Part shown: in pieces, positions 1,327-61,418 of the stretch
Numbering within the stretch: position 1 is the stretch's first letter
How the letters are laid out: every line of letters begins with the position of its first letter
Source of the DNA: Arthrobacter crystallopoietes
Lineage (GTDB): Bacteria > Actinomycetota > Actinomycetes > Actinomycetales > Micrococcaceae
Direction: 5' to 3'
Assembly (NCBI RefSeq): GCF_017603825.1
Contig: NZ_CP072014.1
Location: 124,001-188,000, forward strand
DNA: 64,000 nt
Notes under the pieces: model-generated
Told to the model about the DNA's origin: nothing
The model's database searches: none
What the model saw: only the letters and a program-made list of their open reading frames with translations
Position numbers and translations under genes: made by a program

Positions 1327-1511
1327 CGGAAGTCCTTTGGCCAGTCTTGTCGCTCACCGGGTACTGATCCGTCGTCCGGAGACCTGCGGCTTCGAGGTCT
1401 TGCTACGAAGATATCAACGTACGACGGCGGGGGCGGGGTTTGGTTGCCAATGTCACCACCAGAAGCGGCCAACCGTGCCCGAAGGAGCGGCTCGCGTGGC
1501 ACGATGGACAA

Positions 1512-4795: not shown

Positions 4796-6136
4796 ATGCG
4801 TCCAATGCAACACTCCAGCAAGCTCCAGAACGTCCGGTATGAATTGCGCGGGCCCATCCTGCATGCGGCCAAGAAGATGGAAGCCGAAGGGCAGCGTATT
4901 CTGCGCATGAACCTTGGCGACCCTGCGCCGTTCGGGCTGGAAGCGCCGGAGTCGATTGTCGTGGACATGATCCACCATTTGCGCGAGGCCCAGGGCTACA
5001 GCGATTCCAAGGGCATCTTTTCCGCCCGCACGGCCATTTCGCAGTACTACCAGACCAAGGGCCTGATGCAGATCGGCGTCGAGGATATCTTCATCGGCAA
5101 CGGCGTCAGCGAACTGATCTCCATGACGTTGCAGGCTTTCCTGGAAAACGGGGACGAGATCCTCATTCCCGCCCCGGACTACCCGCTCTGGACTGCATCC
5201 GTCACTCTCAGCGGCGGTGAGGCCGTCCATTACCTCTGCGATGAGGACAACAATTGGTGGCCGGATATGGCGGACCTCGAAGCGAAGATTACGGAGCGCA
5301 CCCGCGGCATCGTCATCATCAATCCGAACAACCCCACGGGTGCCGTATACCCGCAGCACATCATGGAGCAGTTCGTCGAGCTGGCGCGAAAGTACGACCT
5401 GGTGCTTTTCTCGGACGAGATCTACGAAAAGATCACCTACGAAGACGCGGTCCACATCCACACCGCTTCGGTGGCCGACGATGTTGCCGTCCTGACCTTC
5501 AGCGGACTGTCCAAGGCGTACCGGATGCCCGGTTACCGTGCCGGCTGGGTGGCCATCACCGGTCCGCGCGCCGCCACTGCCGCGTACCGCGAATCGCTGG
5601 AACTGCTGGCTTCGCTGCGGCTATGCTCCAACGTTCCCGCCCAGCACGCCATCCAGACTTCACTCGGCGGTTACCAAAGCATTAACGATCTGGTGCGGAC
5701 CGGCGGACGGCTGCGGGAGCAGCGGGACCGGGCCTGCGAGCTGCTCAACGCGATACCGGGCGTGAGCTGCGTTCCCGCCGCCGGTGCGATGTATCTGTTC
5801 CCGAAGCTGGATCCGGAGATCTACCCCTTCGGCAGCGATGAGCAGTTCGTCCTGGACCTGCTGGAGGAGCAGAAGATTCTGGTCTCGCACGGCACCGCCT
5901 TCCACTGGCCGACGCCGGACCATTTCCGGTTCGTCATCCTGCCCTCGGTGAATGAAATCGAAGAAGCGGTGCGCCGCATTTCCTCGTTCCTGACCCTCTA
6001 CCGCAAGAAGGCGGCAGCCGCTGCGCAGACCGCTACGGCACAGCTGTCGCTGACAGCCCTGGCCCAGGCCCAGGCGGAGGCGGAGGCGCAGTCGCAGGCC
6101 CAGGCGGAGGCGCCCGCCGCAAAACGCCCGGCGTAG
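4796..6136 (+). CDS. alaA: PLP-dependent alanine aminotransferase, AlaA type
   Basis: The product transfers an amino group between glutamate and pyruvate, giving L-alanine. The class I aminotransferase core aligns almost end to end with E. coli AlaA: SSKL start, RMNLGDPAPFG, APDYPLWTA, INPNNPTGAVY, SDEIY with the PLP-contacting Asp207, and SGLSKAYR with the Schiff-base Lys240. The ATG at 4796 matches the E. coli start; an in-frame ATG at 4781 is also possible, and neither has a clear Shine-Dalgarno. The last 40 or so residues, after LTLYRKK, are an extra Ala/Gln/Glu low-complexity tail absent from E. coli AlaA. Confidence 0.93.
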   Translation: MRPMQHSSKLQNVRYELRGPILHAAKKMEAEGQRILRMNLGDPAPFGLEAPESIVVDMIHHLREAQGYSDSKGIFSARTAISQYYQTKGLMQIGVEDIFIGNGVSELISMTLQAFLENGDEILIPAPDYPLWTASVTLSGGEAVHYLCDEDNNWWPDMADLEAKITERTRGIVIINPNNPTGAVYPQHIMEQFVELARKYDLVLFSDEIYEKITYEDAVHIHTASVADDVAVLTFSGLSKAYRMPGYRAGWVAITGPRAATAAYRESLELLASLRLCSNVPAQHAIQTSLGGYQSINDLVRTGGRLREQRDRACELLNAIPGVSCVPAAGAMYLFPKLDPEIYPFGSDEQFVLDLLEEQKILVSHGTAFHWPTPDHFRFVILPSVNEIEEAVRRISSFLTLYRKKAAAAAQTATAQLSLTALAQAQAEAEAQSQAQAEAPAAKRPA

Positions 6137-37255: not shown

Positions 37256-37334
37256 CCTCGTGAAATGCGCTCAATAAGTGAGCGCACTCAGGCAGTTGCC
37301 AGCTTCTTCAAGGCTAATTTACAAAATGGGGTCG

Positions 37335-37340
37335 TAGCGT
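37335..37340 (+). promoter_or_regulatory. Putative -10 box of C-loop RNA copy 1
   Basis: TAGCGT lies just upstream of the RNA element. TAGTGT stands in the same place in copies 2 and 3. Confidence 0.4.
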
Positions 37341-37343
37341 TTT

Positions 37344-37432
37344 AAGCACCTCATCAAAGGTGCGAGTGAACAAGACACCGGCTGGTCCTAGAGCCTCCCC
37401 CAACCTCCTGGACCAGCCGGTGTCGTTCGTTA
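37344..37432 (+). ncRNA. C-loop small RNA element, copy 1
   Basis: A 5' hairpin GCACCT-N6-AGGTGC is followed by GAGTGA. A perfect 14-bp hairpin then runs from ACACCGGCTGGTCC (37375-37388) to GGACCAGCCGGTGT (37410-37423), with the loop CCTCCCCCAACCTCC, and the tail is CGTTCGTTAA. Copies 2 and 3 keep the same first hairpin, linker and loop while the long stem changes with compensating bases, which supports a selected RNA structure. No protein is encoded. The loop CCTCC is complementary to the Shine-Dalgarno GGAGG. Confidence 0.8.
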
Positions 37433-38091: not shown

Positions 38092-38202
38092 GGGGCCATT
38101 CTGCCGACGATGCCAGTGGGCTGCTACCCTGAACGCCATTTTCGCTTTCAGGTTATTCACAGGCGGTTCCGGGTTTGCATTCATGTAAAGGCTTTAGTGT
38201 TG

Positions 38203-38288
38203 AAAACACCTCATAGGTGCGAGTGATTACGGCACCGGCGGTCGGAGTTTCCCCCAACCTCCCGATCCGCCGGTGCCTTCTCTTTTGT
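38203..38288 (+). ncRNA. C-loop small RNA element, copy 2
   Basis: It has the same layout as copy 1. The -10-like TAGTGT is at 38195-38200 and the hairpin CACCT-CAT-AGGTG at 38207-38219, followed by GAGTGA. The main stem GGCACCGGCGG/CCGCCGGTGCC (38231-38241 and 38267-38277) has an inner TCGG/CCGA. The loop is TTTCCCCCAACCTC and the tail TTCTCTTTTGTC is terminator-like. It lies between two divergent genes. Confidence 0.82.
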
Positions 38289-43404: not shown

Positions 43405-43535
43405 AGCTGAATCATGAGCGCCAACATCAAGCCCTGGCTTGTTGGCCGGCAACCCTCTCGTGCGTAGCGGGGTGCTCCAGGTGATGATTCGGCCGTACCG
43501 AAGAACAGCGGTTCGGCAAGTACCGCGTATCCGCC
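43405..43535 (+). ncRNA. SAM-IV type S-adenosylmethionine riboswitch
   Basis: The core reads ATCATGAGCGCCAACATCAA, then GCCCTGGCTTGTTGGCCGGC and AACCCTC, followed by GGGGTGCTCCAGGTGATGAT. This is the SAM-I/IV core with the outer stem GAATCAT (43409-43415)/ATGATTC (43484-43490). A 3' hairpin (GTACCGAA/TTCGG-AAGTAC, about 43495-43523), the extension of SAM-IV, follows. It precedes the flavin reductase gene and should repress it when SAM is abundant. Read from sequence and known consensus; not folded by program. Confidence 0.88.
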
Positions 43536-61242: not shown

Positions 61243-61322
61243 GGAAGAGACGATACCAAGGCCGCAAAGAGATACTCAGCCAACGCACAGGTTACTCACG
61301 GTCAATGAACAACTTGGGCCCT

Positions 61323-61328
61323 TAGTGT
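61323..61328 (+). promoter_or_regulatory. Putative -10 box of C-loop RNA copy 3
   Basis: TAGTGT precedes the first hairpin, as in copy 2. Confidence 0.4.
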
Positions 61329-61418
61329 GAAAGCACCTCATAAAGGTGCGAGTGATGCGGCGTCGGCCGGTCGGAGTTTTCCCCCAACCTCCAGACCGGC
61401 CGGCGCCTTTCTCTTTCC
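61329..61418 (+). ncRNA. C-loop small RNA element, copy 3
   Basis: The first hairpin GCACCT-CATAA-AGGTGC (61333-61349) and GAGTGA are as in copies 1 and 2. The main stem GGCGTCGGCCGGTC/GACCGGCCGGCGCC (61359-61372 and 61394-61407) has 14 pairs with one G-U. The loop is GAGTTTTCCCCCAACCTCC and the tail TTTCTCTTTCCCC fits a terminator. It lies between a divergent and a convergent minus-strand gene. Confidence 0.82.

Follow-up and report, generated by a model that had tools for sequence, protein, structure and literature searches.

The 64,000-nt stretch of Arthrobacter crystallopoietes DNA analyzed here (the window) contains three plus-strand loci that we propose are sibling genes of one small-RNA family. 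Each locus has its own promoter-like region, in which an OmpR/PhoB-type box lies directly upstream of a TAGnGT -10 element, and each would encode an RNA of ~75-85 nt with a 5′ hairpin, a GAGUGA(U) linker and a GC-rich hairpin exposing a CCCCC loop. In the explanation that we favor, at a probability of roughly 0.6, a response regulator would activate all copies together, the 5′ hairpin would protect the 5′ end of the RNA, the last hairpin would end transcription, and the RNAs would act in trans. The C loop would pair with G-rich ribosome-binding sites and so block translation of several mRNAs, as the loops of mycobacterial 6C/B11 do, with the hairpin-GAGUGA as a second functional element, either a seed or a protein site, and the main one in lineages that lack a C loop. 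An initial annotation of this DNA had read the loci as an intergenic RNA family with selected structure and no described family known to match it, whose C-rich loop could pair with ribosome-binding sites. That much stands; its choice of CCUCC as the exposed motif, its count of three copies and its listing of TAGnGT among the shared motifs of the RNA do not, and the response-regulator box and the family-wide distribution are additions to it. To our knowledge, few actinobacterial sRNAs have known roles, and most Actinobacteria are not known to have Hfq-like chaperones; an sRNA-like gene that nearly all sampled Micrococcaceae carry, and whose promoter code is ready to hand, would provide a tractable model for two-component-to-sRNA regulation.

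Three copies of one putative transcription unit

The copies occupy positions 37346-37431, 38206-38288 and 61333-61416, where the initial annotation had placed them on the plus strand, and the motifs it listed are common to all three. The order of elements is box, -10, 5′ hairpin, linker GAGUGA(U) and one or more GC hairpins, usually with an exposed C run. In copy 1 the response-regulator box, delimited by the logo and alignment over 179 and 144 copies, spans 37286-37324 (+), with CAG half-sites at 37289 and 37300, a degenerate third and CAA at 37322. The -10 element TAGCGT (37335-37340, +; sequence and logo) precedes the 5′ hairpin GCACCUCAUCAAAGGUGC (37346-37363, +; fold and alignment), with a predicted RNA start at ~37346-37348; the conserved linker GAGTGA (37364-37369, +; sequence and alignment) and a long GC hairpin with the loop CCTCCCCCAAC and a short T-containing tail (37374-37431, +; fold and covariation) follow. 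Copy 2 has its box, TTCAGGTTATTCACAGG plus downstream half-sites, at 38146-38184 (+; logo and alignment), the -10 element TAGTGT at 38195-38200 (+; sequence and logo), the 5′ hairpin ACACCTCATAGGTGC at 38206-38220 (+; assigned by sequence and alignment, the single-sequence fold giving an alternative instead), the linker GAGTGA at 38221-38226 (+; sequence), and a GC hairpin with TTTCCCCCAACC around the loop and a T-rich tail TTCTCTTTTGT at 38231-38288 (+; fold and covariation). The box of copy 3, ACTCAG..GCACAGG plus downstream half-sites (61274-61312, +; logo and alignment), is also recovered by a box-only model, R3, at E 2.9e-6, copy 3 being among the copies on which R3 was trained. It is followed by the -10 element TAGTGT (61323-61328, +; sequence and logo), the 5′ hairpin GCACCTCATAAAGGTGC (61333-61349, +; fold and alignment), the linker GAGTGA (61350-61355, +; sequence) and a GC hairpin (61359-61416, +; fold and covariation) with the centroid loop TTTTCCCCCAAC, in which CUCC is paired to GGAG, and the tail TTTCTCTTT.

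The initial annotation had spoken of a three-copy family, which holds for the window; the whole genome (4.38 Mb) has five. It was searched with the exact core, AGGTGCGAGTGA, and with a covariance model built from the three window copies only (R1). Besides the window copies, at 161358, 162215 and 185344 of G000:C1, there are copies at 2119753 (minus strand; copy 4) and 4328549 (plus strand; copy 5), and three of the five thus sit within ~24 kb. The exact core matches these five places and nothing else. R1 found four copies strongly and the fifth at E 1.4, so that counts made with R1 are low.

Folding of copies 1-3 gave z scores of -6.5, -5.3 and -6.1 against dinucleotide shuffles, with none of 200 shuffles as good for any copy. 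Because folding is strong on the reverse strands too (z -7.2, -4.1 and -4.0), folding alone does not give the strand, which follows from the -10, the box and the C run. Taken with the covariation described below, the folding supports the view that these hairpins are copies of a small intergenic RNA family with selected structure.

A response-regulator-type promoter layout upstream of each copy

The TAG(C/T)GT motif, originally listed among the shared motifs of the RNA, is by a 179-copy logo a -10 element upstream of it. The copies for this logo were picked by the exact core pattern, so the invariance of the core among them is partly built in; from 186 copies, six without an acceptable -10 and one more with its -10 at distance 32 were dropped. 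Two loci where the core of a single copy carries a 15-nt tandem duplication (AAGGTGCGAGTGATG two times), L154 (positions 5733-5760; a Micrococcus MAG) and L171 (Citricoccus zhacaiensis), are counted twice in both the 186- and the 179-copy set. In the consensus, four TTCnCAG half-sites recur every 11 bp and are followed by TAGnGT and, 20-23 nt further on, by AGGTGCGAG; the distance from -10 to core is 20-23 in 179 of 180 copies. When the copies are aligned on the -10, CAG triplets appear at -46, -35, -24 and -13 from it, with C/A/G frequencies of.84/.84/.80,.74/.84/.85,.57/.53/.84 and.76/.96/.50, respectively; the third half-site, degenerate in copy 1, is the weakest in the logo. Conservation of the -10 is inflated, since the rule that located it requires T, A and T and prefers G at the third position; the box lies outside the search pattern and is free of selection by it. 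The logo has no TTGACA-like -35, and the repeats end close to the -10.

By its sequence, this layout is that of an OmpR/PhoB-type promoter, in which a single half-site, directly repeated every 11 bp, precedes a -10 element. The published PhoB box, CTGTCAT(A/T)4CTGTCAT, and the PhoP box of Streptomyces coelicolor, GTTCACC-N4-GTTCACC, are laid out in the same way. The pho-box promoters thus share the 11-bp direct repeats near the -10 but differ in the half-site, which here is TTCnCAG. Among the published half-sites compared, the closest is that described for PhoP of Mycobacterium tuberculosis, with TCACAGC direct repeats and a 4-bp spacer (PMC4832192); the operator described for Corynebacterium glutamicum PhoR is CCTGTGAAaatCCTGTGAA (reverse complement TTCACAGG; PMC3353115).

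One of the two pstS-like genes of the same genome has GTTCACTTTCCGTTCAT upstream (GTTCAC-N5-GTTCAT), and no TTCnCAG repeat within two mismatches was found upstream of either. Membership of a phosphate regulon with a pstS-type PHO box was rejected, the half-site being different from that of the genome's own pstS promoter. For MtrA, the published motif has GTnAC-type half-sites, for example upstream of a peptidoglycan hydrolase gene; an MtrA-like site, GTCACATTCAGGTAAC, unlike TTCnCAG, lies upstream of one of the four NlpC/P60 loci of this genome, a single observation without an estimate of chance and with the upstream DNA of one locus (L262) too short, which speaks slightly against MtrA as the regulator. 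Because the sites at pstS and at the NlpC/P60 locus both differ from the new box, the candidate regulator is probably a third OmpR-family protein.

Searched with R3 at E <= 10, the genome yields eight matches. Five are the sRNA copies (E 2.9e-6 to 0.058), a preference partly built into a model trained on sRNA promoters. The other three (E 0.023, 0.33 and 0.76) precede genes whose products, judged from their sequence, are small exported proteins and a protein-kinase-like protein, and each has a look-alike in another genome of the genus (G002). An IUPAC pattern of two half-sites, with up to one mismatch allowed, matches the genome at 26 places, compared with one when the pattern is reversed. Of the 26, two are sRNA copies, six represent a single repeated sequence that we take to be 16S rRNA, and most of the others overlap open reading frames.

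Distribution of the family among the Micrococcaceae

The covariance search that the initial annotation had proposed was run with R1 on genomes of the order, and the relatives it found are confined to the bacterium's own family. At E <= 0.001, 28 of 79 genomes match (the source genome included), all of them among the 49 own-family genomes, with no match in the 30 genomes of other families of the order. A promoter-plus-core model (R2), built from 144 copies selected by the exact core, matched 183 of 197 Micrococcaceae genomes at E <= 0.01, in 32 of 32 genera and with up to nine matches per genome. The 14 genomes missed are three of genus g3 and 11 of the 12 of genus g6, the twelfth having one weak match at E 0.007. 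In a sample of the class, R2 matched 4 of 296 genomes, three from the own family (the source genome included) and one weak. In a sample of the order it matched 44 of 396, comprising 32 own-family genomes and 12 others at E 1.8e-4 to 0.009. All 12 were read, and they have the same box and -10 before something else, with the full core in none. The single partial exception is G795, of another family (f3), where an unlike hairpin (GCGGGG...CCCCGC) is followed by GAGTGATTCA.

The pattern ACCTCATN{1,3}AGGTGCGAGTGA matched at least 120 stretches in named genomes, and 115 of those listed have Micrococcaceae titles. The titles bear the family name itself or name Arthrobacter, Paenarthrobacter, Nesterenkonia, Glutamicibacter, Paeniglutamicibacter, Kocuria, Rothia, Micrococcus, Citricoccus, Zhihengliuella, Auritidibacter, Tersicoccus, Psychromicrobium or Specibacter, all of which we take to be members of the family. 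Five of the 120 listed have other titles: Shewanella (L120), Anabaena (L140) and Trichormus (L166), which by eye have neither box nor hairpin and look like chance matches; an 'Acidobacteria' MAG contig (L074); and 'Curtobacterium sp. S6' (L094), which has both box and -10. The exact core pattern had no match in a collection of viral contigs, and a search for phage matches with copy 3, the sole copy tried, gave none. In several genomes copies stand in tandem ~150-170 nt apart (for example L150, and G031 with four copies).

RNA structure and the C-rich loop

As the initial annotation had stated, the long stem differs in sequence between copies yet still pairs, and the compensatory change is real, with 5 of 12 pairs changing on both sides. 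Across 27 single-hairpin copies the lower 12 pairs are 98.4% paired. Over both helices, 29 cells of the alignment carry a double change, against 8.3 +/- 2.5 in shuffles (0 of 500 had as many); the number of pairs with any double change, five, is not above shuffles (84 of 500 reach five). When the partner strand is slid by 1-3 columns, pairing falls from 95% to at most 43%. Double changes are absent from the 5′ hairpin, where C-G/U-G exchange alone keeps the pairing, in an alignment whose rows had the exact 3′ arm of this hairpin by selection; its outermost pair (13-30) is unformed in 18 of the 27 copies. Termination at the last hairpin is not certain, because the tails are only weakly T-rich, with a mean of 3.8 T in 12 positions (146 copies).

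An exposed CCUCC had been annotated in the loop. A C-rich element is indeed exposed in the predicted folds of all three copies, but it is CCCCC, and CCUCC is not exposed in all of them: the loop of copy 1 is CCUCCCCCAAC; in copy 2 CUC pairs with GAG in the centroid structure and not in the minimum-free-energy structure; and in copy 3 CUCC of the last CCUCC pairs with GGAG and is mostly in the stem. Runs of five or more C occur between +10 and +75 in 112 of 179 copies, whereas 20 mononucleotide shuffles averaged 33.6 and never exceeded 46; runs of five or more G occur in 18 copies. At least three positions are unpaired in 116 of 120 C runs. Thus the C loop looks to have been selected in many lineages, and the enrichment of C runs makes it probable, by analogy, that the loop works like that of 6C, pairing with G-rich ribosome-binding sites.

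The C loop is, however, not the hallmark of the family that it had been taken for. With genus labels assigned by hand from sequence titles (31 of the 179 copies carry none), C runs are present in all 34 Arthrobacter copies counted, in 2 of 16 copies of the 'Arthrobacter' strains MYb, S41 and NIO-1057, which were set apart as Glutamicibacter-like, and in none of the copies counted from Glutamicibacter (0/9), Rothia (0/3), Micrococcus (0/8) and Citricoccus (0/4). Copies of Glutamicibacter, Rothia and Micrococcus keep the hairpin plus GAGUGA despite having no C run. The common denominator is therefore the hairpin plus GAGUGA and not the C loop. This pattern is an argument for a different division of labor within the same sRNA family, in which the working part would be the 5′ hairpin plus GAGUGA(U), as a protein-binding element or seed, and the C loop would be secondary or would tune stability. 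In keeping with that idea, GTGCGAGTG is kept in 27 of the 28 R1 loci (L019-L046; the best matches of 27 relatives and one second match), and G795 carries a wholly different hairpin before GAGTGATTCA, as if stem shape and linker were what mattered. Against it, C runs are three times as frequent as in shuffles and mostly unpaired, so that they too appear to be under selection in many genera, and we consider it a rather doubtful account of how the RNA works. A genome-wide search for antisense targets of the core found none beyond control, with 10 one-mismatch matches against 14 for the control.

Genomic context

An FMN-reductase gene lies between copies 1 and 2. A plus-strand gene ends ~90 nt ahead of the predicted RNA start of copy 1, pheA (prephenate dehydratase) begins 67 nt after copy 2, and copy 3 is situated between a DUF3237 gene and a cupin-like gene whose cupin match is below the Pfam cut-off. 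The commonest site elsewhere has proC (divergent, 22 loci) on one side and ppx/gppA (convergent, 15 loci) on the other, near a TrkA gene (15 loci), these gene clusters being named from a Pfam test of one representative each. Copies 1 and 3, like those between proC and ppx, are followed by a convergent gene, which favors action in trans.

The proximity of copy 2 to pheA could indicate instead a cis-regulatory leader or attenuator, and a survey by Weinberg et al. (2010) has an ambiguous actinobacterial 'pheA' motif, without an Rfam number, in a single table row of its main text (PMC2864571). Yet downstream genes vary from copy to copy and are often convergent, and the gene cluster of this pheA adjoins the RNA at four loci, all within the own genus, making a leader quite improbable. 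Since pheA-side neighbors occur in the own genus only, identity with the 2010 motif is also unlikely. A still poorer account treats the elements as intrinsic terminators or GC hairpins of neighboring genes, similar by chance or as a repeat. The second hairpin is terminator-like, and the start of copy 1 does follow a gene end by ~90 nt; but promoter region, 5′ hairpin and linker are all conserved and present across the bacterial family, and copies 1 and 3 have a minus-strand gene on their other side. The initial annotation had itself named chance hairpins and plain terminators among the results that would refute its reading; the spread of R1 and R2 matches and the conserved promoter disfavor both, leaving this reading very improbable. 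Least credible is a short coding gene starting at a GTG or ATG in the linker: although AAGGUG precedes GUG and, in many copies, AUG, and one frame is open in 124 of 179 copies and another in 110 of 179 (core plus 75 nt), the first C run, taken relative to the core, is divided evenly among the three frames (42, 36 and 34 of 112), in agreement with the original remark that no coding frame is conserved, the long stem covaries as RNA, and ATG is missing in two of the three window copies.

Returning to the sRNA genes, units are also carried by two conjugative Paenarthrobacter plasmids, at ~115,610-115,720 of CP000475.1 (L286) and ~78,390-78,480 of NZ_CP136442.1 (L287). Both copies have box, -10, core and C-loop hairpin and stand beside parA partition genes, which suggests that plasmids plug into the circuit. 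One of the two belongs to Paenarthrobacter aurescens TC1, an atrazine degrader. A mobile repeat was set aside as an explanation of the copies, since what the aligned copies have in common is promoter plus RNA, and no transposon-like border was noticed in passing.

Comparison with known RNAs

With Rfam 15 at gathering thresholds, none of the copies in the window or in 12 relative loci was matched; copy 3 was searched at gathering only. A permissive scan of the region of copies 1 and 2 and of copy 5 gave matches far below gathering, the best being the miRNA model MIR5387 on the other strand (E 0.092). Two ordinary riboswitches elsewhere in the window score above gathering, SAM-IV at 43410-43528 (+) and guanidine-III at 1336-1404 (-).

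One of the closest known RNAs is 6C/B11 (RF01066), likewise a small actinobacterial RNA with C runs in hairpin loops, whose C-rich loops are described as pairing with ribosome-binding sites (PMC10470900). Some copies of the new RNA, such as that of Arthrobacter castelli (L039), even have two C-rich hairpins. In contrast to 6C, the new RNA has at its start a non-C hairpin followed by a conserved GAGUGA linker, and it is multicopy in many genomes. No 6C was found in the own genome; RF01066 had no match in the window or the 12 relative loci at gathering, nor in the region of copies 1 and 2 or copy 5 at E <= 10. Membership in 6C was rejected, as the window copies stay below the RF01066 gathering cut-off and have one C-rich hairpin where 6C needs two. 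At E <= 0.001, 6C matches 4 of 49 Micrococcaceae genomes, two each in genera g6 and g10 only, and one of the four is above the Rfam cut-off; g6 is the genus mostly without the new RNA.

The rhizobial 'cuckoo' RNAs (CcsR/alpha-r14) are multicopy sRNAs of Alphaproteobacteria with anti-Shine-Dalgarno loops and a CCUCC motif, and are likened to the new family here by description alone. A parallel for the promoter, also by description and not by sequence, is Mcr7, an sRNA under PhoP described in the M. tuberculosis complex (PMC4038636): it too is driven by an OmpR-family regulator, with TCACAGC sites spaced by 11 bp. Literature searches returned no description of the family among the titles and abstract openings of the best-ranked matches, and matches to searches by sequence were judged unrelated on the same basis. 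To that extent, and within Rfam 15, the original statement that no described family is known to fit holds.

The same promoter layout before other apparent genes

In family f3, seven loci (L275, L276, L278, L280, L277, L283 and L272) have a different conserved RNA-like element of ~130 nt behind the same box and -10. It carries ACTGTGTTGATGGGAT (ATTGTGTTGATGGGAT in L272) and then a strong terminator-like hairpin. An Rfam scan of five of these loci and five others gave nothing near gathering, the best being BSnc120 with 27 of 114 bits (L277). Loci from other families in the order have this box and -10 immediately before apparent protein genes, as judged by eye (L215 in G052, L273, L274, L279 and L281), hinting at a wider regulon. 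As a tentative extension, we suggest that a Micrococcales OmpR-type regulator may have most of its strongest sites before sRNAs: in the Micrococcaceae the present multicopy, tandem-duplicating and plasmid-borne family, and in f3 the ACTGTGTTGATGGGAT RNA behind the same promoter. Different RNAs would then occupy one and the same position in a stress circuit, and the hairpin-GAGUGA would bind a partner.

The own genome also has three tandem minus-strand hairpins, ACTGGCCGGA(A/G)CT(T/G)CCCCCAACGG(T/C)TCCGGCCAGT, at ~489,308-489,444 of G000:C1 (L014 and L018), which share the CCCCCAAC loop with the sRNA and in which the core is absent.
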